DNA of 46,857 nucleotides from Sedimentisphaerales bacterium (GTDB taxonomy: Bacteria > Planctomycetota > Phycisphaerae > Sedimentisphaerales > Anaerobacaceae). This document shows positions 14,873-38,726 of this stretch, piece after piece. Made by a program: the position numbers and the translations under genes. Numbering within the stretch: the first letter of the stretch is position 1; the number at the start of each line of letters is the position of its first letter. The DNA is taken from NCBI GenBank assembly GCA_016932095.1, contig JAFGDN010000077.1:1-46857 (forward strand). The letters run 5' to 3'. A model generated the notes under the pieces. It worked only from the letters and a program-made list of their open reading frames with translations. It searched no databases and had not been told where the DNA came from.

Positions 14873-15625
14873 ATGTTCGCAGGCAGGAAAGTCATAGTGG
14901 TTATGCCGGCGTATAACGCCGAGAAGACGCTGCGCCCGACCTACGATGAGGTTATGGCCCAAAACATTGCGGACCTGGTCATTATAGTTGATGACGCCAG
15001 CCACGATGACACCGCTGCCGTCGCGAGGAAGCTGCCGCAAACCGTGGTTGAGGTGCACCCGGAAAATCGCGGTTACGGTGCCAACCAGAAGACCTGTTAC
15101 AAGCTTGCGCTGGAGCACGGCGCCGATATCGTCATTATGGTTCACCCCGACTACCAATATACCCCGAAGCTGATACCGGCTATGGCTTCAATGATTGGCA
15201 GCGGCCTCTACCATTGTGTACTTGGCTCGCGAATCCTGGGCGGCTATGCTCTCAAAGGGAATATGCCCTGGTGGAAGTATATCTCAAACCGGTTCCTTAC
15301 GCTGACGGAGAACATTCTGCTTGGCGCTAAACTATCCGAATATCACACGGGCTATCGGGCGTTTTCGCGTCAGTTGCTCGAAAAGCTGCCGCTCAACGTC
15401 AACAGCGACGATTTTGTCTTCGATAACCAGATGCTGGCTCAGATTTTGTGGATGGGCTATACGATTGCGGAGGTAAGCTGCCCGACCAAATACTTTCCCG
15501 AGGCGTCTTCGATAAACTTTTCGCGCAGCATCAAGTACGGCCTGGGCTGCCTGTGCACGGGTATGAAGTTTCGCCTGGCGAAAATGAACCTCATAAAATC
15601 GGATATGTTCCCCCGGCGGTCATAA
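14873..15625 (+). CDS. Family 2 glycosyltransferase (polyprenyl-phosphate sugar synthase-like)
   Basis: A 250-residue GT-A fold enzyme beginning KVIVVMPAYNAEKTL, with VDDASHDDT (nucleotide binding), HPDYQY (the acidic position that holds metal and UDP/GDP), and YHTGYRAFSRQLL near the acceptor site. There are no membrane helices. The sequence resembles dolichol/undecaprenyl-phosphate mannose or glucose synthases. With two GT39-like transferases directly upstream it may charge the lipid carrier they use (inference). A TATAAT at 14861-14866 ends seven bases before the ATG and no Shine-Dalgarno is visible, so the mRNA may be leaderless. Confidence 0.87.
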   Translation: MFAGRKVIVVMPAYNAEKTLRPTYDEVMAQNIADLVIIVDDASHDDTAAVARKLPQTVVEVHPENRGYGANQKTCYKLALEHGADIVIMVHPDYQYTPKLIPAMASMIGSGLYHCVLGSRILGGYALKGNMPWWKYISNRFLTLTENILLGAKLSEYHTGYRAFSRQLLEKLPLNVNSDDFVFDNQMLAQILWMGYTIAEVSCPTKYFPEASSINFSRSIKYGLGCLCTGMKFRLAKMNLIKSDMFPRRS

Positions 15626-15681: not shown

Positions 15682-16869
15682 ATGAGTATTAAACAGATAA
15701 TTCGTTTGTGGGCGCAGGTTATGTTTTTGTTTTTGCCGATTCTGTTATCTTTGGCGAAAGGAAATCCTGAACCGCATGGACTTGCGGAGCTTGAGGCACG
15801 GGTCAAAATTATTCTCGCAAAAGACAATGTATCTCAGCGCCGTGAGGTAAACGATATTTTTAAACTGGCAGATATATACGCAGCTCAGGGCGACGCACTC
15901 AAAGCAGGGAAACTTTATGAAACGGGCCTGGCGATAGACAGCTTTCGTCTGGACTATCAGTTGAAGCTGGCTGATATTCTCAGGGATAAAGGCGACGCCA
16001 ATCAGGCAGTTGAAAGGTATAAAACTGTTTATGCATACGCCGAGGACGAACGGATTATAAACTCGGCCAAAGAGCGTCTGCAATCTTTGAAGGTTGATTG
16101 CACCAGACCCGAACAGGAGGAGAGCAAATTTAAAATCGTTGTTGTTCCGATTGGGGAAATAAACCGGTTTTTTGTAGATGAGCTGATGACTGAGCTTAAC
16201 CGTGCCACCGGAATCAGGTATGAGCTTTCTGAAAAACAGCTTCCCGTCGGCGAGCCGGACAGGACCAATGCGCAGCGTTATCTTTCGATGCTGTGTGAAA
16301 AGATTAAGTCGGAAAAACCCAATATTAAGCCGCTGCCGGATACCGCCGTGAACGCGCAAATGGAATTTATAATCGGTCTTATGCGCAAAGACGGCGTAAA
16401 ACCGGAAGATATCAACGCGTTTAGAACACGAATAATTGAGAATTTTCAGGTCGGCCAGAGGAATGCTGACCGGTTAATTTCAGAGCTGAAAAAACAGTTT
16501 GGTTCCGATAAAAAACCCGACGTTGACGGTTATCTCGGTATAACTGCGGCGGACATTTACAGCGGCGACAATAATTACCTGTTCGGATGGGCCCAGAAGC
16601 GGTTCGGCGTAATGTCTTACTGCAGATTTACGGCAGGTTTCAATAAGGAACCAGAGCATCGGCCGAGATTGCTTAAACGCGCGCTAAAACAGGGTATTTC
16701 GAGCACTTTTTTTATCTTAAATATACCGCGCTGCAGCAATGTGATGTGTGTACGCGCATATCCGCATAGTTTATCGGAACAAGACCTTAAGGGCATCGAA
16801 CTGTGCGAGTGGTGCAAACAACAGCTCAGGAAAAAGCTGGAAGAAAAAGAAATAAAGTCAAATCGTTGA
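15682..16869 (+). CDS. Exported TPR plus archaemetzincin-like protein lacking the zinc-protease motif
   Basis: 395 residues from the ATG at 15682 (GGAAGGCGG upstream). There is a signal peptide (MFLFLPILLSLAKG, about 14-27), then TPR-like helices (about 40-140) with DIYAAQGDALKAGKLYETGL. From about 150 on it follows the archaemetzincin layout: KIVVVPIGEINRFFVDELM, GYLGITAADIYSGDNNYLFG (about 287-300), and a C-terminal zinc-site pattern C351-x4-C356 and C375-x2-C378 with HSLSEQD. Where archaemetzincins have HExxHxxGxxH, this protein reads KQGISSTFFILNIPR (336-350), with no His or Glu. I infer a catalytically dead metzincin that keeps the structural zinc site. Other frames do not restore the motif. 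Confidence 0.75.
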   Translation: MSIKQIIRLWAQVMFLFLPILLSLAKGNPEPHGLAELEARVKIILAKDNVSQRREVNDIFKLADIYAAQGDALKAGKLYETGLAIDSFRLDYQLKLADILRDKGDANQAVERYKTVYAYAEDERIINSAKERLQSLKVDCTRPEQEESKFKIVVVPIGEINRFFVDELMTELNRATGIRYELSEKQLPVGEPDRTNAQRYLSMLCEKIKSEKPNIKPLPDTAVNAQMEFIIGLMRKDGVKPEDINAFRTRIIENFQVGQRNADRLISELKKQFGSDKKPDVDGYLGITAADIYSGDNNYLFGWAQKRFGVMSYCRFTAGFNKEPEHRPRLLKRALKQGISSTFFILNIPRCSNVMCVRAYPHSLSEQDLKGIELCEWCKQQLRKKLEEKEIKSNR

Positions 16870-16894: not shown

Positions 16895-16923
16895 TTGAAA
16901 CGGGGATACGAATATGGTATAAT
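16895..16923 (+). promoter_or_regulatory. Sigma-70-type promoter for the beta-helix protein gene
   Basis: TTGAAA at 16895-16900, a 17-base spacer and a perfect TATAAT at 16918-16923. The downstream leader to the ATG at 17030 is about 100 bases. Confidence 0.7.
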
Positions 16924-17029: not shown

Positions 17030-19702
17030 ATGAAAAGCGTTCATATTTTTGCGGTTGTTTTATTGGCGTTTTGCGGAATCAGCGCGGCGGCGGGGAATCC
17101 TTCTGAACAAGAGCTTCTTGAAGCACAAATGCTGGCGCTCGAGGTTTCCGGCCAGTTACAGCCGCCTGAAGAGCCAACGCAGCAAATCCTCAATGACCTT
17201 GCAATAATCAGGGCGGCGTTTCCTGATATGGCGGATATCAAATACTGGATGCCTTATGCGTCCAAAGAAATGTTGGTTGGTCTTACCCCGGAGGCGGTTA
17301 CAAAATATAAAGCGGGCCGGTACCACGGCCTCGATGCGCTGAATGAGCAATACGGCGTGGTCGATATAGACGCGCATCTTGTTGATCGCATTTCTTTTAT
17401 AAAATTGACATTCGACGAGGTTTATAATATGGAACTTTTGTCGGATATTTATGAACAGGCGCATCCGGAGGGACTCGATTATGCACAACCGAATTACAGT
17501 ATAGGCGACGGCAGCACGATTAGCGCCAAGCCGCCTGAATATATTTTTACGGAAAAATGGGGCGATTGCCCGGCGGGCTGTACAGAGGGCAGAAACTGGA
17601 ATTTCAGAGTCGAAAACGGCCAGGCAACTCTTTTGTCAGTATATGGACCACGCGGCCAGGAACTATATGTCCCGGCCCAGTATGATACGGTTCAATCAGC
17701 GATTGACGCGGCTTGCGATGGGGATACTGTAATCGTAAAGCCGGGTAGATACTATGAAAATATCGACCTGCTGGGTAAGGCGATTCTTGTGACGGCCAGC
17801 GGCGGGCCGACTGTTACAATTATAGACGGCCAGGACGAAAAACCGGTCGTAAACTGCGTAAGCGGGGAAGGGCCGGAAACGACCCTGGAAGGGTTTACTA
17901 TAACGAGCGGGCTGACGGAGTTCGGCAGGGGTATGTATATCGAGGCGAGTCAGCCGACGATTATAAATTGCATATTCACGAATAATAAAGCCGATGGTAA
18001 CGGCGGGGCGATATTCAATAAGGACGGAAACCCCGCCGTGGTCAATTGCATATTTTGGCAGAACACTGCTGAGAATGGCGGGGGGGTATATAACGATAAC
18101 GGCGAAATGATTATTTGCAACTGCACGTTCTCACGAAACATCGCAATTAAGAACGGCAAGGGATTATGTACGGCCAACGGCGGTAATACATTCGTAACCA
18201 ATTGTATTTTCTGGGATATGTATGACCTGTCGATTCTTAGTGGTGCCAAAACTGCCAATACCCTCAATCTTCCCGATGCCCCCGATGTTCCAAATCCGCC
18301 GAATATTCCTAATACCCCCATTGAACGCAGCGTAATTATTATAACGCCGAGACCACCCCAGCCAATAATTTACACATACCCGGATTCGAAAGTTGCCGTC
18401 AATTACAGTTACGTTCAGGACGGGGATTTCACCGATGGTGAAGGGAATATCGATGCTGACCCGCGTATGGTTAATCCCCGAGCGGGCGATTTTCGACTGA
18501 TGCCCGGTTCGCCGTGCATAGACGCCGGCGATGACGGCGCAATCCCCGCTGATGAGGCCGACCTCGATAACGACGGCGATACGGCTGAGCCGATACCGAC
18601 GGATATTTGTCGAAAACCCCGTCTATGGGGAAACGCGGTCGATATGGGGGCGATTGAGTATCATCCTAATTTTACGCCGACGGCTGATGCGGGGCAAGAC
18701 CAGACAATTGAGGCGACGAGGAAGCGGACAAGGATTGTGCTGGACGGCTCCGGCTCGACTGACGAGGACTCGACCGAGGGAACCAACGACGACATAGTCA
18801 ATTTCGAATGGTTCATTCGCAGCGAGAAACCGATTTTACTGCCCGGCGTTGAAGATGAATTTGATGTGCCTGTGCCCTCTGTTCCGGGCGACCCGGATTA
18901 CGGTATTTTGCTGGGAAGCGGCGAGGTCATTGAACGCGATTTGCCGATAGGCGTCCATACCGTAACCTTAAGAGTTACCGATAAAGCCGGCGAAACAAGC
19001 ACGGATGTCGTAATAATAACAATTCAGGACACTACCCCGCCTGTCATAACACTCAATGGAAAAGAAACGATTACCATAAAAAATCAACGCGGCTTTTACA
19101 GGGAGCCAGGGGCGACGGCCTATGATACGCACGACGGCACGGTGCCTGTGATTATTGGCGGCGACAGGGTGCAATTGGCTAAATCCGGAAAATACGTGGT
19201 AACTTATGACGCGATTGACTCATCGGGTAACGCCGCTGTGCAGGTCAGGCGGACGGTGGTTGTAGAGGATACGAAACGGCCGTATTTTCGGCTTCGTGTC
19301 AGGCCGAAAATTTTACGTCCAATGAATTATGAAATGGTGCGGGTCAATCCTGAATGGATTGTCCGCGATAATATTGACCCGTCGCCGGAGGTATCGCTGG
19401 TTAATATTGTCGCCGTCGAACGCGGCGTTGTTGTCGGCGATATGAGCGATAGCGACGATATAGCTGTTACCGTGGATGGCGCCATATACCTGCGGGCCAA
19501 ACGCAGCAATGTAAAATTCAAAAGGGTTTATATCCTGACCTATCAGGCGGCGGACGATTCGGGAAATGTAACGACCAGGCGGGCAAAGGTTTTCGTGTCG
19601 CGGAGGCAGATTAAGCAAATTCAAATGCCTTCTTTTCCAGCGGTTTTGCCCGTTCCTCAGACCCCAACCGGCTTTGTTTTGACACAAACCGGGGGCAGGT
19701 GA
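17030..19702 (+). CDS. Large exported parallel beta-helix protein with choice-of-anchor and Ig-like domains
   Basis: 890 residues with a signal peptide (MKSVHIFAVVLLAFCGISAA), chosen because GGGGGG precedes this ATG. Domains in order: an N-terminal region of unknown fold; a right-handed parallel beta-helix (about 215-480) opening with YDTVQSAIDAACDGDTVIV and containing repeated PTIINCIFTNN-like coils; a proline-rich break (about 405-450); a choice-of-anchor segment SPCIDAGDDG to VDMGAIEY (about 500-545); a PKD-like domain (ADAGQDQTIEA, about 550-660); and DUF5011/HYR-like Ig domains (TTPPVITLNGKETI, about 667-753, and a second to about 865). It is probably surface or extracellular; ligand unknown. 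Part of a run of exported proteins and glycosyltransferases. Confidence 0.85.
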   Translation: MKSVHIFAVVLLAFCGISAAAGNPSEQELLEAQMLALEVSGQLQPPEEPTQQILNDLAIIRAAFPDMADIKYWMPYASKEMLVGLTPEAVTKYKAGRYHGLDALNEQYGVVDIDAHLVDRISFIKLTFDEVYNMELLSDIYEQAHPEGLDYAQPNYSIGDGSTISAKPPEYIFTEKWGDCPAGCTEGRNWNFRVENGQATLLSVYGPRGQELYVPAQYDTVQSAIDAACDGDTVIVKPGRYYENIDLLGKAILVTASGGPTVTIIDGQDEKPVVNCVSGEGPETTLEGFTITSGLTEFGRGMYIEASQPTIINCIFTNNKADGNGGAIFNKDGNPAVVNCIFWQNTAENGGGVYNDNGEMIICNCTFSRNIAIKNGKGLCTANGGNTFVTNCIFWDMYDLSILSGAKTANTLNLPDAPDVPNPPNIPNTPIERSVIIITPRPPQPIIYTYPDSKVAVNYSYVQDGDFTDGEGNIDADPRMVNPRAGDFRLMPGSPCIDAGDDGAIPADEADLDNDGDTAEPIPTDICRKPRLWGNAVDMGAIEYHPNFTPTADAGQDQTIEATRKRTRIVLDGSGSTDEDSTEGTNDDIVNFEWFIRSEKPILLPGVEDEFDVPVPSVPGDPDYGILLGSGEVIERDLPIGVHTVTLRVTDKAGETSTDVVIITIQDTTPPVITLNGKETITIKNQRGFYREPGATAYDTHDGTVPVIIGGDRVQLAKSGKYVVTYDAIDSSGNAAVQVRRTVVVEDTKRPYFRLRVRPKILRPMNYEMVRVNPEWIVRDNIDPSPEVSLVNIVAVERGVVVGDMSDSDDIAVTVDGAIYLRAKRSNVKFKRVYILTYQAADDSGNVTTRRAKVFVSRRQIKQIQMPSFPAVLPVPQTPTGFVLTQTGGR

Positions 19703-21125: not shown

Positions 21126-22805
21126 CTACATTCGTTTATAACGCGGGCCGCCTGTGCCTTCGGGGCAGGTCCAGCGGATATTATCAAACGGGCACTTCCG
21201 CCGGCAGGTCTTGCAGTGCAGGCAATTAGATGGGTTAGCCGGCTTGACGACGCCCTGGACGGTTTCATAAACGCCGGCGGGACAAAAGGTGATGCAGGGG
21301 CTTTTGAAAACGGGGGTGCATTTTGTCCGGCAAATGTCTGAATTGAGAATTGTCAGGTGGCTGGGCTGGTCTTCGCGATGATTGGTTCCGGCCATAGCGG
21401 TGAAGGTGTCCTTGTCGAAGGTCTGGTCGGGTTTGAGCCGGTATTTGGCGGTCGTCATCGCCTTGTAATCGGGCTCGATATCGAAAAGGGGTAATAGTGT
21501 GCCTAAGACCGAAAGGGGCATACCTATTAGCGGGCCGAATTTGGCGACGGTCTGGCGGAATGTGGCGGCGCGCATCATTTCCCTCGCGACGTTGGATTGT
21601 TTGATAAGAACGGTATAGAACACCGCGGCAGGAATTTGTGGTTTTGACGGCTTGCCGGAGTTTATTGAAAATGCAATGGCTTTGGCGGCCTGCATCCCCG
21701 AATCGATGGCGTTGTGAAGACCCTTGATTTTGAGCATATTCACAAAACCCGCGGAGTCGCCGATGATGAGGACGTTGCCTTTTCCGATTGAACCGGTAAC
21801 CGGGTCTCGCGGGACGGCGTGCCAGCCGGCTTCGGGAATCATTTTTGCGCCGGCCTCGACGATAGTGCCGCCCCCGATGAATTGTTTGACGCGGCTGTGC
21901 TCTTTGAAAAGCGTGAGGGCGTCCTGTGGATTGAAATCGTTATATTTCCAGTCGGCGCCGACAATCATACCGACAGATAAGTGGTCCTGCTGGCCTGCGT
22001 AAAGGATGCCGCCGCCGAACATCGCGGGGCCGATGACGGGTGTCCATATCGGATAGCCCATAGCGTGGACGACCCTGCCGGCGGTAAATTTGGCGTATTG
22101 TTCGGGTGAGACCTTTATAAGCTGTTTTACGCCTAAGGAGAAAAGCTGATTGGCGTCTCGTTTGAGGCCGGCTTTTTCGACGAATTTTTCGGTTAAAAGG
22201 CCTTCGCAGCCCTCGGCGAGAACGATGAATTTAGCTTGGATTGTCTCGCCTTCGATGTAATTGGGTTGTTTTTGGCCTTCTTTATTTAGGCCCTGGTCAA
22301 TGAGTTTTACGGCTGATGCGCCGTAGTCGCTGGTGATGATATCGGAGGCGGCGAAGCCCGTGAGTATTTCGACGCCGACCGATTTTGCGATTTGGCCCAG
22401 CCATTTTGTGAGCTTGCTGATTGAAACCGAATAATCGCCCCGGTGGTCCATCTGGCCAAAGCCGAGGCCGAAAACTTTCGCCATACGAATCGCCAAATGA
22501 ATATTTACGCCGAATTTCTTACCGAGCAGAAACAGGACGTTGTCTTTGTCGATTTTATTTGCGAAGACGTCTTTTGCTGCGTCGGTGTTTTGCCAGCCGG
22601 GGCTTGCAGCGTCTAATAGCGTATGGAGCGGCTCTTTTTCTAAAACCGCGCCGGACAAATTATGATTGCCTAATTCAGCGCCTTTCTCGATGACGCAGAC
22701 CTCGGTTTCAGGCGACAGAACTTTCAACTGAATAGCACAACTCAGGCCCGCCGGCCCGCCGCCTACTATGAGAACCTCGACCTTATTTAAATTGCCGTTA
22801 GCCAT
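21126..22805 (-). CDS. Electron transfer flavoprotein-quinone oxidoreductase
   Basis: The 559-residue flavoprotein starts with a Rossmann FAD site, VLIVGGGPAGLSC (about 11-23), followed by NHNLSGAVLE and further FAD contacts (NVLIIGDSAGFVNMLKIKG). It ends with an iron-sulfur segment NCLHCKTCRRKCPFDNIRW. This is the ETF-QO layout: FAD, quinone and [4Fe-4S] centre passing electrons from ETF to the membrane quinone pool. No transmembrane helix is expected; the family is monotopic. It starts three bases past the stop of the restriction gene and is followed closely by glnA. Confidence 0.93.
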   Translation of the reverse strand: MANGNLNKVEVLIVGGGPAGLSCAIQLKVLSPETEVCVIEKGAELGNHNLSGAVLEKEPLHTLLDAASPGWQNTDAAKDVFANKIDKDNVLFLLGKKFGVNIHLAIRMAKVFGLGFGQMDHRGDYSVSISKLTKWLGQIAKSVGVEILTGFAASDIITSDYGASAVKLIDQGLNKEGQKQPNYIEGETIQAKFIVLAEGCEGLLTEKFVEKAGLKRDANQLFSLGVKQLIKVSPEQYAKFTAGRVVHAMGYPIWTPVIGPAMFGGGILYAGQQDHLSVGMIVGADWKYNDFNPQDALTLFKEHSRVKQFIGGGTIVEAGAKMIPEAGWHAVPRDPVTGSIGKGNVLIIGDSAGFVNMLKIKGLHNAIDSGMQAAKAIAFSINSGKPSKPQIPAAVFYTVLIKQSNVAREMMRAATFRQTVAKFGPLIGMPLSVLGTLLPLFDIEPDYKAMTTAKYRLKPDQTFDKDTFTAMAGTNHREDQPSHLTILNSDICRTKCTPVFKSPCITFCPAGVYETVQGVVKPANPSNCLHCKTCRRKCPFDNIRWTCPEGTGGPRYKRM

Positions 22806-22808
22806 AAA

Positions 22809-23966
22809 TTATAAAGCTATTATTTGTTTAAGAAATTCAACCGATTCTTTTTTGTTAATTCCGTATTCGGGATTCATAATAAGCTGTCCAATCGTTTTCC
22901 CCTCAAATTGGGTAGCCCCTCTGGAGTTTCTCCCCGACCAATGCTTCCGCAGTTTTGTTGAACAGAGCAGCTTTCCCTGAAACATCGAGACCAAAACAGT
23001 GTTAACAATTCTATCCGGGTCAACACCAACAAAATAAAACATAAATACCGACCGCGCTGACGACAAAAACTCAAGCATTTTATCCAAATTGTATGCCTTT
23101 GGATTTGAGTCAAGAATCATTATTTTTGTTTTTACGTCTGTCTCGATGTCATAATTATCAAACACTTTTCTGTAGTCGCCAAGTTCATTTGCGGTTTTGA
23201 ATTGAGGAATTTCCTTATTGCCGTCCCTTAGGGCGGATATTAGCTCTCGTTTGGGTCGGTCGTCTTTCCCGGTGATAAGATATTCAATTATACGGCCTCT
23301 AACGTTACCATTTTTTATGTGTTCCGCTTTGAGAATTTCTTTCTTGAATTTTCTCACTTTTTCGTCGAGTTCCTTTTTGAGTACCTTCGCTTCTTTTGAT
23401 GAGACGAAATTTTTGGCTCTGTTCGGGGCGTCAAGAATTATATTTTTAGATTTTCCATTGATAATAAACTTTCTACCTAACGGGGTAATGCTGTTCGTAA
23501 CCTCAACAAGCCGAGGCAGGTTACCGTCAAAACCGATGCCTTCATGAATATGAAACAATCTTTCGAAATTTTCAGGTGAATTTGTAATTCCCTCAAATTC
23601 TCGGGTTATGTCCGACCCGTTAAAGCTGCCTCGTATATTGTTTTCTCTTAGCTCTTGAGAAGTATGACTGATTTTCTTAAGAAACGTTGTATTGGCAAGA
23701 TATAGATGGTTGGTAGAAGGTGTCACAAGACAGGCAATGAAAGGTCTGTTATCATATTTCTGCAACCTTGAAAGCGACAGAACTGTGTTACTGAAGTTTT
23801 GATTTTTTGATGAACTAAATCTAATTGCAAAATCTCGGCAATAATATACGGAGCGGTCCTTTACAAGCTCAAATTTGTCCGCAACAAGCTTGGATAGCTT
23901 TGTTTTGTCGTTAATCCCATCTTTATCTTTGATAAATTTTATGAGCGACTTAAGAGACCTATTCAT
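22809..23966 (-). CDS. Probable type II restriction endonuclease
   Basis: The 385-residue protein is assigned by position: its ATG overlaps the stop of the DNA methyltransferase (ATGAATAG), the arrangement of a type II R-M pair. It starts MNRSLKSLIKFIKDKDGIND, chosen over an ATG 18 bases upstream because of this coupling. It is lysine-rich and soluble, with no obvious GIY-YIG or HNH motif. A region ETDVKTKIMILDSNPKAYNL could be part of a divergent nuclease core, but I cannot assign a catalytic motif or a recognition site. Its base composition is more AT-rich than the ETF genes around it, consistent with acquisition by transfer. Confidence 0.6.
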   Translation of the reverse strand: MNRSLKSLIKFIKDKDGINDKTKLSKLVADKFELVKDRSVYYCRDFAIRFSSSKNQNFSNTVLSLSRLQKYDNRPFIACLVTPSTNHLYLANTTFLKKISHTSQELRENNIRGSFNGSDITREFEGITNSPENFERLFHIHEGIGFDGNLPRLVEVTNSITPLGRKFIINGKSKNIILDAPNRAKNFVSSKEAKVLKKELDEKVRKFKKEILKAEHIKNGNVRGRIIEYLITGKDDRPKRELISALRDGNKEIPQFKTANELGDYRKVFDNYDIETDVKTKIMILDSNPKAYNLDKMLEFLSSARSVFMFYFVGVDPDRIVNTVLVSMFQGKLLCSTKLRKHWSGRNSRGATQFEGKTIGQLIMNPEYGINKKESVEFLKQIIAL

Positions 23967-24954
23967 CGAAAAGCACCAATTCATCTTTGAGGGAAAGGAT
24001 TTTTGACTTGCTCATTTTCTGTTCAATTATGCTGTTGCGTTCCCAAAAGACGCCGTCGGTATAACCCTGAATATTTGGCTCGGTTTCGGCAAATTCGAGA
24101 CGTTTTTCGGCAAGGCAGCAGTAGTCGGTATCGATTTCAATGCCGACGTAATGCCGATGTAATTTTTTGGCAACCACCGACGTTGTGCCTGAGCCGAGAA
24201 ACGGGTCAAAAACAACGTCGCCTTCGTTTGAACTCGCGAGTAACACTTTTGCCAGAAGTTTTTCCGGCTTCTGGGTGGGGTGGTCGGTATTTTCCGGCAT
24301 AGACCAGAAGGGGACTGTCAGGTCAGTCCAGATATTAGACGGATGCGTGATACGGAACCGCCCTTCACCGGTTTCGTGCCAGTCCTTCGGCAAAGCGTTC
24401 TCGTCGGTATAAGGTGCAAGAACCCGCCTTTTGATTTTCACGGCATCGACGTTGAAGGTATATCTGTCGGATGTCGTGGCAAACCATATATCTTCTGAAT
24501 TATTCTTCCAGTTGGTATTTGCACCCCGGCCTTTTTCTCTTTCCCAGGTGATTCGATTCTGGATTATAAAGTATTTGGAAAGGACGCGATGAATCGCAGC
24601 AGACGAACGCCAGTCGCCGCAAACGTAAATCGAACCGGCGGGTTTGAGCAGCCGTCGCATCGCCGGAAGCCACGTTTCAAGCCATTTTTCATACTCGTCG
24701 AGTGAGACCTGTTTGAACCTGTTTCCGTTAAAATCCTTCGTCAGATTATACGGCGGGTCTGCGAAAACAAGGTCAAAAGACGCTGTGGGCATAAATTCCA
24801 AAATTGTGAACACATCCTTACATATAGTTGAATCCAGAATGTCTTTGAGTTGAACGCCTGAACGGATTTGTTTGAGACGGTTTCTTAATCTTTTGCGGTC
24901 TTCGTCCGTCAGAATAATCGTTCTGTTACGCGGCGCTCTTTGCTTATCTGTCAT
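23959..24954 (-). CDS. DNA methyltransferase, beta-class amino-methyltransferase
   Basis: The 331-residue enzyme carries catalytic motif IV DPPY (about 66-69, in LVFADPPYNLTKDFNG) before motif I FDPFLGSGTTSVVAKK near the C-terminus. This order is typical of beta-class N6-adenine or N4-cytosine methyltransferases such as M.HinfI. DPPY favours adenine as target (inference). The central SNIWTDLTVPFW and HPTQKPEKLL lie before motif I as expected. ATG at 24954 is preferred; a TTG at 24990 is possible. It protects DNA from the nuclease encoded immediately downstream with overlap. Confidence 0.92.
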   Translation of the reverse strand: MTDKQRAPRNRTIILTDEDRKRLRNRLKQIRSGVQLKDILDSTICKDVFTILEFMPTASFDLVFADPPYNLTKDFNGNRFKQVSLDEYEKWLETWLPAMRRLLKPAGSIYVCGDWRSSAAIHRVLSKYFIIQNRITWEREKGRGANTNWKNNSEDIWFATTSDRYTFNVDAVKIKRRVLAPYTDENALPKDWHETGEGRFRITHPSNIWTDLTVPFWSMPENTDHPTQKPEKLLAKVLLASSNEGDVVFDPFLGSGTTSVVAKKLHRHYVGIEIDTDYCCLAEKRLEFAETEPNIQGYTDGVFWERNSIIEQKMSKSKILSLKDELVLFDE

Positions 24955-25017
24955 AGATACTATCCAACACGGTAGGCGGTAAATTTTCAAGAAAAAAACA
25001 ATGAGGTCTCTTAACCA

Positions 25018-27111
25018 CTACGTATGCTCCTGTAACGCAGCGGCTAACTGCGGTATGACATCTTCTGCGTTGCCGACGACGTAGTAATCGCACTGCTTGA
25101 AAATGGGCGCGTTGTGGTCGCTGTTTATGGCGATGATGGTTTCGGTATTGGCGACGCCAATCATATGCTGAATCGCGCCTGATATACCGATAGCAAGGTA
25201 AAGTTTTGGTCCAACGGCGGTTCCGGTCTGGCCCACCTGGCGGATTCTTTCGGCGAAGCCCTGCTCGACGGCCGCCCGGCTTGCGCCCCGCTCGACTGGG
25301 ACGTTTAGACGGTTTTTCAGGGCGTCGCGGAGGGAATTGAGGAGCTTCTCGTAATTGTCTCGGTTTTGCATACCTTTGCCGCCTGAGACAATTACCTCGG
25401 CGTCAAACTGGACCTTGCCTGCGCCACGCTCGGTTTTGATGATTTCGAGTGAAATATCGTCTTGGGTTACGCTTGCCTTATGGTTGATGACTTTGCCTTT
25501 TCTTGAGAGGTCGGGGGGCAGTCGTTTCATAACGCCGGGGCGGGCGGTTGCCATTTGGGAGCGTGAGTTTTTGGTTGAAATGGTTGCCATAACGTTGCCG
25601 CCGAGAGCGGGGCGGGTTTGCAGGAGGACTGCGAACTGGCCTTTACGGGAGCTGTCGCGGATGTCGAAGGATGTGCAGTCGGCGGTCAGGCCGCAGCCGA
25701 CCCTGTAAGAAATCAGCGGGGCGAGGACCCTGCCCTGGGGGGTGGCGGCGTAGAGGACGATTTGCGGCCGGTATTTGCTGACGGCGTCGGCGATGACCTT
25801 GCGATGAGAGAGGGGGTCGAACTCGCCCAGCAGGGGGTCGTCGATTAAATAGACGTTGTCTGCGCCTGCGGCGATGAGGGATTGCGTAAGGGGGGGTAGT
25901 TTGTGGCCCGCGATTACGACGCCGACCTTTGTTTCAAGCGAGTCGGCAAGGTCTCTTGCCTTTCCTATAAGCTCGAAGGTCGCAGGATGAATGATGTTAT
26001 CACGATGCTCAGCGACGACCCAGACCTCGCCTTTGTAGCTCGGTTCGGCGACCTGAAGGCCGGCCAACATATCGTCGAGGGTGTTTTTATGAAAGTTTTC
26101 GCCGGCGGCGGCGAGAATTTTTTCCTTTATTGACTCGTCTATTGAGCTGATAGCGGTTATGCCCAGTTCCCGCAGCTTGTTAGTGAGAATTTTGTAGTCC
26201 TCGACCTCCTTGGCGGTGCCTTCAAACGTCCTGTCAAAATGGTCTTTTCGTTTTGAAGGGAGGATATAACCTGAAATTTGTTTATCTGACTCGTCGCCGC
26301 TTTTTTGAGATTTGACGCTTTCGATAATTACATCAGCCAAAGATTTGGCATCGGTCAGACACCGGCATTTTCTGTTTGTTTTACCGGGGGGGAAGACGCG
26401 AATGACCCATGTTTTCGAGCCCTTTGTGCCGATGAGCGTGGCGTTAATATCGGCGGCCGACCAGGTAATGACTTTTGTTTTGCCGGCGCGTCTTGAGGCG
26501 GCGAAGGTCGCGAAAAGGGGGTATTCGTATTTGGCGACGGTAACGACGGCAGGGGGGCGTTTCGCGGCGACGATTTGCGAGCCGCCGCTGATGATGCGGG
26601 TAAATTCGAATCGCCCGTTATTTAGCCGGCAATCAGTCGCGTATGCGATGCAGGGAAGCCCCAGTTCTTCGGCGATTTGCGGTGGCACCTGGGCGGTATC
26701 GCCGTCAACGGATTGCATACCGGAGACGACGAAGTAATTGTTGTCGCCGTTGAAAATCTCTTTGACGATTTTGCGAATGGAAAACGCGAGAGGATTGGCG
26801 GTTGCAACGGTATCGGCGCCGCCGAGGGCCTTGTCTGTGAGCAGGATAACGGTATCGGCGCATCTGCTGAGGGCATACCGCAGGACATCTTCAGCCATAG
26901 GGGGGCCCATACTCAGGGCGACGATTTTTGAGTCGGCGTCGCCGTTGAGATTACGCATCCTGTTGGCAAAGGCCATTGCCTGTGTGTCAAGCTCGTTTAT
27001 GACGCTTGCGAGGCGCGCACGTATAAGCGTACCGGTACTCGGGTCGAAGGCGTTATCTGTTATCTGCGATACGTCAGGGACCTGCTTAACCAGAACAATA
27101 AAGTTACTCAT
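25018..27111 (-). CDS. Fused electron transfer flavoprotein, beta-alpha (EtfBA)
   Basis: A 697-residue single chain combining both ETF subunits. Residues about 1-250 are EtfB-like (IVLVKQVPDVSQITDN; INELDTQAMAFA; SGGSQIVAAKRPPAVVTV). A linker of about 100 residues follows. Residues about 370-697 are EtfA-like (GEVWVVAEHRDNIIHPATFE; the C-terminal FAD domain with QVGQTGTAVGPKLYLAIGIS and INSDHNAPIFKQCDYYVVG). ETF is normally an alpha-beta heterodimer carrying electrons from acyl-CoA dehydrogenases to ETF-QO. Its partner ETF-QO is two genes downstream, separated by the R-M pair. No frame break is visible, so I read it as a true fusion. Confidence 0.93.
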   Translation of the reverse strand: MSNFIVLVKQVPDVSQITDNAFDPSTGTLIRARLASVINELDTQAMAFANRMRNLNGDADSKIVALSMGPPMAEDVLRYALSRCADTVILLTDKALGGADTVATANPLAFSIRKIVKEIFNGDNNYFVVSGMQSVDGDTAQVPPQIAEELGLPCIAYATDCRLNNGRFEFTRIISGGSQIVAAKRPPAVVTVAKYEYPLFATFAASRRAGKTKVITWSAADINATLIGTKGSKTWVIRVFPPGKTNRKCRCLTDAKSLADVIIESVKSQKSGDESDKQISGYILPSKRKDHFDRTFEGTAKEVEDYKILTNKLRELGITAISSIDESIKEKILAAAGENFHKNTLDDMLAGLQVAEPSYKGEVWVVAEHRDNIIHPATFELIGKARDLADSLETKVGVVIAGHKLPPLTQSLIAAGADNVYLIDDPLLGEFDPLSHRKVIADAVSKYRPQIVLYAATPQGRVLAPLISYRVGCGLTADCTSFDIRDSSRKGQFAVLLQTRPALGGNVMATISTKNSRSQMATARPGVMKRLPPDLSRKGKVINHKASVTQDDISLEIIKTERGAGKVQFDAEVIVSGGKGMQNRDNYEKLLNSLRDALKNRLNVPVERGASRAAVEQGFAERIRQVGQTGTAVGPKLYLAIGISGAIQHMIGVANTETIIAINSDHNAPIFKQCDYYVVGNAEDVIPQLAAALQEHT

Positions 27112-37758: not shown

Positions 37759-38072
37759 GTGTTCTCCTTAGGCTTTTTGGCTATCTTTACTTCATCCGTA
37801 GCCCAATAATGATTATACGTTTTGTATGAAACAGGAACCACTGTTTGTGCCAGCATAAGAAGTTTTCGTTGTTAATTCAATATTCATTTAATTACTTGCT
37901 TTTCAACGAATAACTTCCGCTTGCCGGTTGCTAATCGCCGTTCCGATTTCAAACTGAAGGTAGCGTCTTATTAACGGGAAACGGTCTATATAGCGATAAG
38001 ACTGCTTTTACTGCGGTTCAAAAAGCTAAAAAGCCGATAATTTATTTGGTCCTATTTCAAAAGGAGAAGAAA
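37759..38072. other. Divergent gap between HD gene and PEP-CTERM gene
   Basis: An AT-rich gap with a possible minus-strand -10 box at 37812-37817. No gene, RNA or repeat arm is recognised. Confidence 0.4.
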
Positions 38073-38726
38073 ATGAAAAAGCAACAATTTTTGAAAGAAC
38101 GAAAGATGAGACCTTTAAGATACCTACTAATTGTTTACTTAACCCTGTATGCCGCAATCTCTGTGAATGCCAATTTATCTACATACTTGATTACTTCTTC
38201 AAACACAGTCTCAATTGGTGATACCTTCACAGTTGATATCAGATTGGGTGGGGCGACAGAACCTGTTGGCGACTACAGGATAGGTGTTTACTTTGACCAT
38301 CTTCTTATATCAGACCTTACAGAATCAACTCCAATTAAAGACGTCTTTGCCGGAGCTTTAGGAGTGCCTGGAACTGATACAACAGCAATTTGGGGAGTTT
38401 ATGAAAATGAGTCTTTGGACATCGTTCGCGTTGCTGAAATAAGCTATTGGTTGCAGTCAAGTGATCTTGCTGCGCTTCAATCAGACCCATTCACAGTTGC
38501 AACGCTCTACTTTTTAGCTAACAACTTTGGAACTATTGATTTTTATGTCACATCAGCTGATATTGGTGGTGCTGGAGTATTTACAGTAGCGGGACTTTGG
38601 GCTGATTACGGACAAAGACTGACAGTTGATGAAACTCATGGCACCTCAGTCTCTGTCGTCCCCGAACCAACCATGCTTTTGCTTCTCGGCTTTGGTGCGG
38701 CAATTGTTCGGAAACGCAAAATATAA
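38073..38726 (+). CDS. PEP-CTERM sorting-domain exported protein
   Basis: 217 residues from the ATG at 38073 (AAAAGGAG upstream). There is a signal peptide (YLLIVYLTLYAAISVNA), a beta-rich middle starting NTVSIGDTFTVDIRLGG (cohesin-like in pattern), and a C-terminal VPEPTMLLLLGFGAAIVRKR. The last is the PEP-CTERM tripartite signal: VPEP, a helix, then an Arg-rich tail. Such proteins are cut and anchored by an exosortase and often occur with exopolysaccharide systems; no exosortase gene is in the window. Confidence 0.9.
   Translation: MKKQQFLKERKMRPLRYLLIVYLTLYAAISVNANLSTYLITSSNTVSIGDTFTVDIRLGGATEPVGDYRIGVYFDHLLISDLTESTPIKDVFAGALGVPGTDTTAIWGVYENESLDIVRVAEISYWLQSSDLAALQSDPFTVATLYFLANNFGTIDFYVTSADIGGAGVFTVAGLWADYGQRLTVDETHGTSVSVVPEPTMLLLLGFGAAIVRKRKI

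Follow-up and report, generated by a model that had tools for sequence, protein, structure and literature searches.

What becomes of an archaemetzincin when the zinc-binding motif that makes it a peptidase is gone, and what could such a protein do outside the cytoplasm? This question is raised by one gene in a 46,857-nt stretch of DNA from a Sedimentisphaerales bacterium (Planctomycetota), the whole of which we call the window here. The original prediction, made from the sequence alone, had described its product as an exported archaemetzincin-like protein that is fused to TPR helices, has no HExxHxxGxxH motif and might serve a non-catalytic binding role. The gene is an intact reading frame that runs from the ATG at 15682 to the stop at 16867-16869 with zero internal stops, is preceded by GGAAGGCGGAAA, a plausible ribosome-binding site, and is the sole M54 match of its own genome (2.95 Mb, 96.3% complete). 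Our analysis confirms that both the likeness to archaemetzincins and the motif loss are real. The gene and the parts of its product are:

15682..16869, plus strand: gene for a 395-aa protein with TPRs and an archaemetzincin-like domain, predicted to be exported and non-catalytic (open reading frame, Pfam and NCBIfam matches, AlphaFold2 model, structure matches)
15682..15759, plus strand: signal-peptide-like N-terminus, residues 1-26, MSIKQIIRLWAQVMFLFLPILLSLAK (hydropathy)
15781..16086, plus strand: TPR region, residues 34-135, two TPRs with the conserved N49-x3-R53 (Pfam, solved TPR proteins, model helices)
16129..16833, plus strand: archaemetzincin-fold domain, residues 150-384 (VIA-align Z 19.3-21.1; profile E to 1.9e-22)
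16267..16443, plus strand: three-helix insertion inside the domain, residues 196-254 (model secondary structure and alignment)
16660..16716, plus strand: former active-site helix, residues 327-345, still helical in the model
16699..16734, plus strand: replaced zinc-binding motif, S340-C351, SSTFFILNIPRC where HExxHxxGxxHC is expected (alignment)
16732..16815, plus strand: Cys4 module, C351-x4-C356 ... C375-x2-C378, with R358, family motif RAYPHSLSEQDLK (alignment of 67 homologues)

Recognition of the domain by standard models is marginal. Pfam Peptidase_M54 matches residues 267-384 barely above its cut-off (E 2.9e-5, 24.6 bits against 24.4), and the NCBIfam archmetzin model gives 1.5e-18, under the model's own cut-off. 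PDB archaemetzincins are found at about 1e-6 by single-sequence phmmer with the window protein and at 1e-20 to 1e-22 (lowest 1.9e-22) by a profile of its relatives with the same motif loss, called the degenerate family here. An AlphaFold2 model computed from an alignment of 19 family members (pLDDT 89.9, pTM 0.77) superimposes by VIA-align on 3lmc, 3zvs, 4axq and 2x7m with Z 19.3-21.1 over 157-172 residues at 2.0-2.6 A; these four archaemetzincin entries are the top structural matches, and other metzincins score clearly lower, at Z 14 and less. The model of a Treponema member (L050, pLDDT 90.2) yields Z 20.2-21.5 with the same four entries. Profile E-values of this size and structural Z scores around 20 exclude a chance resemblance. 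Thus, structure prediction and comparison, the check that had been proposed, bear out the claimed fold, and by the model the protein shares the archaemetzincin fold of M54. In common with the archaemetzincins AfAmzA, MkAmzA and MlAmzA (MEROPS M54) it has this fold (Z 19-21), the active-site helix, the Cys4 module, D368 and the edge strand VxSxxRF, which is kept in the degenerate family as VMSYxRF. It differs from them by the absence of HExxHxxGxxH and of the Met-turn Met, by a TPR region, an export-type signal and the three-helix insertion, and the degenerate family as a whole by newly conserved Q/S/S/R/R/Y/P residues. The limits of the insertion, which is shorter in L043-L045, are approximate because merely 157-172 of residues 151-383 align with archaemetzincins.

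The segment SSTFFILNIPRC aligns gap-free with the HExxHxxGxxHC of 47 intact homologues, and at the aligned positions the first His is replaced by Ser, the Glu by Ser, the second His by Phe and the third His by Arg, while the position of the Met-turn Met (CxM) is occupied by R358. None of the three zinc histidines remains, nor does the catalytic Glu or the Met-turn Met; as had been claimed, the segment contains no metal ligand. Because all catalytic ligands are lost, the protein would be unable to use the metzincin mechanism, and it is predicted to have no proteolytic activity. Given that the fold is present and that HExxHxxGxxH and the Met-turn Met, the defining catalytic features of M54, are lacking, it should be named archaemetzincin-like and not a peptidase. 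The four cysteines C351, C356, C375 and C378 are invariant, together with D368, in 20/20 degenerate and 47/47 intact homologues. In archaemetzincins the Cys4 site is a structural zinc site near the Met-turn, and two disulfides lie at similar places in other metzincins (PMC3427221). By analogy, the cysteines of the window protein, if it is exported, may form two disulfides instead of a zinc site. The statement that a zinc site is kept is therefore to be read as cysteines kept: the residues are all in place, the metal may not be.

Searches covering the window's class, its phylum and one genome collection recovered 19 more distinct homologues in which the motif is lost in the same way, which makes 20 degenerate members with the window protein; one scan for relatives was built on a three-member alignment, eight members being too diverse, and is biased to close relatives. 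The split is clean, with 47 homologues that have the full HE..H......HC, 20 in which both the initial His-Glu pair and the last of the three His are missing, and zero intermediates. A maximum-likelihood tree calculated without the motif columns parts degenerate from intact homologues by one branch (support 95/88, 97% of bootstrap trees), with the reservation that it rests on 96 columns and has four long terminal branches; the window protein groups with the degenerate homologues even after this removal. One separating branch and an ancestor with an intact site mean that the catalytic site was lost a single time.

The degenerate members share the signature KQxxS[ST]xGxxxG[IV]PRCxxxxCxRAYP[HN]SLxEHDxK, which drifts in two long-branch members, L013 and L017. 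The window protein reads KQGISSTFFILNIPRCSNVMCVRAYPHSLSEQDLK, departing from it at F343 and Q367, both seen in relatives too, and at N347, a single change. Within the family Q337 is found in 19/20 members, S340 in 19/20, R350 in 17/20, R358 in 18/20, Y360 in 16/20 and P361 in 19/20, and position 341 is Ser or Thr. Intact homologues mostly have Glu, His, Glu, His, Met, Gly and Ser at positions 337, 340, 341, 350, 358, 360 and 361 (Met at 358 in 41/47). Position 344, in the middle of the site, is free among degenerate members (F, Y, H, V, K, L). Judged from their alignment with zinc-site positions, the conserved replacements would cluster in the old cleft. Three closely related members have dN/dS values of 0.16-0.20, which is purifying selection, and their M54-like part (0.16-0.17) is as constrained as the TPR part. 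A His is retained at the second ligand position of L056:1426-2610 (SSIGHIYRVKRC) and L052:7203-8387 (SSVGHVIGIARC), and L048 likewise has one at or near the middle position. In L052 and L056 it may be a remnant of the ancestral site, and, going by these residues, a metal at the old site is conceivable for some members.

The N-terminus is of signal type by hydropathy (maximum KD12 2.73), and nearly all degenerate members with a complete N-terminus have an export-type or lipoprotein-like one. On these grounds the window protein is probably exported and would then probably be periplasmic. The TPR region agrees with the fusion that had been claimed: Pfam TPR_12 matches at E 2.3e-4, a sub-threshold 21.7 bits against a curated cut-off of 30.1, solved TPR proteins are matched by phmmer, and helical pairs of the TPR type are present in the AlphaFold2 model. 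The protein resembles TPR proteins in two TPR-like helix pairs ahead of the M54-like domain; it differs in that its repeats are few, divergent and under Pfam cut-offs. N49 and R53 each occur in 11/13 members that have the region, across phyla, and the TPR plus M54-like architecture was therefore inherited as a unit; the shorter members L014, L015, L022 and L053 are without TPRs. A profile search of the PDB found no solved structure that combines TPRs with an M54-like domain and none of a family member.

The premise that archaemetzincins are normally cytoplasmic, stand-alone proteins does not hold in Planctomycetota, where an intact M54 clade mostly has hydrophobic export-type N-termini. The clade is a large one of archaemetzincins that are exported and catalytically intact (L004, L005, L007-L009, L027, L031, L114 and similar); it extends over Planctomycetota and Spirochaetota, continues beyond the Cys4 module with a C-terminal extension (LRKL...FDVxxRYExLxxFY) and is apparently undescribed in the accessible literature. 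Its Planctomycetota representatives of the L004-L009 type (HETGHMFGxxHCxxxxCVMNGSNSLxESD) share phylum, M54 domain and export-type N-terminus with the window protein; they differ by an intact zinc site, by a separate branch in the tree and in that no TPR region was seen. Since the intact CVMNGSNSLxESD clade mostly has hydrophobic N-termini, export is found outside the non-catalytic branch too.

The degenerate family is patchy and scattered over several phyla. Besides Planctomycetota, its members come from records labelled Treponema, Spirochaetaceae, Riflebacteria, Omnitrophota, Verrucomicrobia and Clostridia; these labels are those of metagenome-assembled genomes and may in some cases be in error, and the 'Clostridia'-labelled L045 groups beside the window protein. 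A high-scoring member occurs in 3/148 genomes of the window's order and in none of three genus-mates. Among the other phyla the genome survey was that of Spirochaetota, in which 247 genomes gave seven matches, one of them degenerate. A general role as companion of an intact M54 paralogue was considered and rejected, since 10 of the 12 other member-bearing genomes (completeness unstated) are without any other M54 protein and an intact M54 gene is absent from the window's genome as well.

The original prediction had also placed the gene with glycosyltransferases and a beta-helix surface protein. Its direct neighbours in the window are:

14873..15625, plus strand: glycosyltransferase family 2 (GT2) gene, ending 56 nt upstream of the window gene (Pfam 4.6e-21)
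17030..19702, plus strand: downstream gene for a beta-helix/Ig-like surface protein (Pfam), outside the conserved unit

The GT2 gene, itself preceded by two PMT_2-type glycosyltransferase genes, is probably co-transcribed with the window gene. In L084, from the window's taxonomic family, the member and a GT4 gene overlap over some 10 nt, with UDP-sugar dehydrogenase and GH130 genes close by. Elsewhere the neighbours are unrelated, namely TrkH (L050), a DnaJ-like and a NUDIX protein (L051), a thioesterase and POR (L052), and DUF4337 and an M28 peptidase (L053), and no neighbour is conserved across the examined member loci. The beta-helix gene has a strong, near-consensus promoter-like site of its own (TTGAAA-17-TATAAT at 16895-16923), and because the listed TTG start at 16895 overlaps it, the ATG at 17030 is the likelier start, as read from the sequence. 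Its product has many partial paralogues in its own genome, and genus-mates contain partial matches alone. Hence, the contact with glycosyltransferases stands for the window and L084, and a conserved linkage to them or to the beta-helix protein was rejected; the search for further members with the same neighbours succeeded for the motif loss and failed for the neighbours. The sole repeated neighbourhood is that of L043-L045, three close relatives, in which the member lies between an ABC transporter pair upstream and, downstream, a gene for a cyclophilin-type prolyl isomerase whose N-terminus is signal-like. The pair argD-argB is conserved at 88-91% identity in the three genus-mates, and none of the further window genes examined (11.3-27.1 kb, window gene included) was found in the 18-kb stretches compared; not being beside argD-argB there, the gene block varies in location.

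Some further features of the window are recorded here in their own right. At 22809-24990 on the minus strand an N6_N4-type DNA methyltransferase gene overlaps a Pfam-less 391-aa gene; the two may be a restriction-modification pair in which the endonuclease went unrecognised. A single 697-aa reading frame (25018-27111, minus strand) holds two ETF domains and an ETF-alpha FAD domain, a beta-alpha electron transfer flavoprotein fusion, and an ETF-quinone oxidoreductase gene lies near it at 21126-22805. The small protein at 38046-38726 (plus strand) has a PEP-CTERM-like C-terminus (VPEPTMLLLLGFGAAIVRKRK) when assessed by eye.

The reading that we favour, with a probability of roughly 0.6, is that of an exported pseudo-peptidase whose remodelled cleft is a binding module or adaptor for a peptide or an anionic ligand, with the TPRs as a second contact surface. 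The preserved fold and edge strand, the joint exchange of the zinc-site residues for conserved polar and basic ones, and purifying selection all speak for a ligand site that has been maintained; the binding function, the type of ligand, the location of the binding site and the adaptor role are inferred. In this view, a single loss of the catalytic zinc site took place in an archaemetzincin ancestral to the now-scattered family, and the emptied cleft was rebuilt with Q337, S340, S/T341, R350, R358, Y360 and P361, R350 replacing the third zinc His and R358 the Met-turn Met. Edge strand and cleft would then most probably bind a peptide segment, a chain end or an acidic ligand near R350/R358. The two arginines suggest recognition of a negative group, for example a chain-end carboxylate or a phosphate. 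The TPRs suggest a protein partner and, as a second protein-binding surface, would let the protein act in the cell envelope as an adaptor or a binder of chaperone type; the loci examined offer no conserved neighbour that points to this partner. The non-catalytic role proposed at the outset is in line with the loss of all catalytic residues under persisting purifying selection. It is possible, and put forward here tentatively, that the members form a distinct, previously unnamed exported family in which the zinc site was converted once to a Gln-Ser-Ser/Thr-Arg-Arg-Tyr site serving a new envelope function, be it recognition of a carboxylate or phosphate ligand or a new catalysis.

CarG of Myxococcus xanthus is the nearest precedent for an archaemetzincin that works by contact with another protein instead of by proteolysis, which speaks for the favoured reading, and a comparison with it is instructive for the alternatives. 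CarG is a non-proteolytic archaemetzincin-like protein confined to myxobacteria, which carries the motif HQx2Hx2Ex2HCx4CxMx16Cx2C and two zinc atoms, belongs to a transcription-regulating complex with CarD and works only through this partner (PMC8156234). By analogy, the window domain could relay a signal by docking to a single partner of its own, for instance a sensor in the membrane or a protease of the envelope, instead of taking up varied ligands. TPRs are typical partner-binding modules, and PA4667 turned up among the TPR proteins of the PDB profile search, by TPR similarity only. CarG and the window protein are alike in the archaemetzincin-like domain, the Cys4 module and the (for the latter, predicted) lack of protease activity. 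However, CarG keeps all three His, while the degenerate family has lost its ligands, has TPRs and is of exported type, and a conserved genetic partner is not seen at member loci. NF033824 ('non-proteolytic archaemetzincin-like protein'), by name and scope probably the CarG family, scores the window protein at 35.3 bits and the degenerate members scanned at 34.6-83.2 bits against a cut-off of 250. The H-Q-x2-H-x2-E-x2-H-C motif is not present in the window protein, and the gene upstream is the GT2 glycosyltransferase, with no coupling to carD. Membership in the CarG family is ruled out by score and motif, and a regulator that merely works in the manner of CarG appears doubtful to us.

Unlikely, and somewhat more so, is a new zinc-independent enzyme site, that of a hydrolase, transferase or lyase made of Ser, Gln, two Arg and Tyr. 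The conservation of Q337, S340, R350, R358, Y360 and P361, where intact homologues differ, is sharper than a mere scaffold needs, yet no catalytic triad or dyad is recognisable, position 341 varies between Ser and Thr, position 344 is free, and the solved structures include no enzyme of archaemetzincin fold with such a site. As a partner of the glycosyltransferases encoded beside it, the protein could have a role in assembling surface glycans or in glycosylating proteins; for this speak the two PMT_2-type genes and the GT2 gene in the window, and in L084 the GT4 overlap, the UDP-sugar dehydrogenase and GH130. Given the unrelated neighbours elsewhere, and glycosyltransferase genes being so common that two contacts may be chance, we consider such a role improbable. 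Finally, a locus found once in the window's genome and missing from three genus-mates might raise the suspicion of an assembly error, a frameshift or a decaying gene. We rejected this as hardly credible: the frame is open, the same positions are replaced in many independent assemblies, close relatives have dN/dS values of 0.16-0.20, and there is no nearby paralogue to reveal a local error, with relatives lacking the very same residues.

The motif loss also bears on annotation, since a Pfam M54 match over the cut-off would mislabel degenerate members as peptidases. In the open-access literature we found no paper on the degenerate family and one non-proteolytic archaemetzincin, CarG, which keeps its zinc ligands; the degenerate family is without the whole catalytic set. 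It is a pseudo-peptidase branch of the archaemetzincins, and as such a testable case of a protease scaffold that may have been turned into a binding module.
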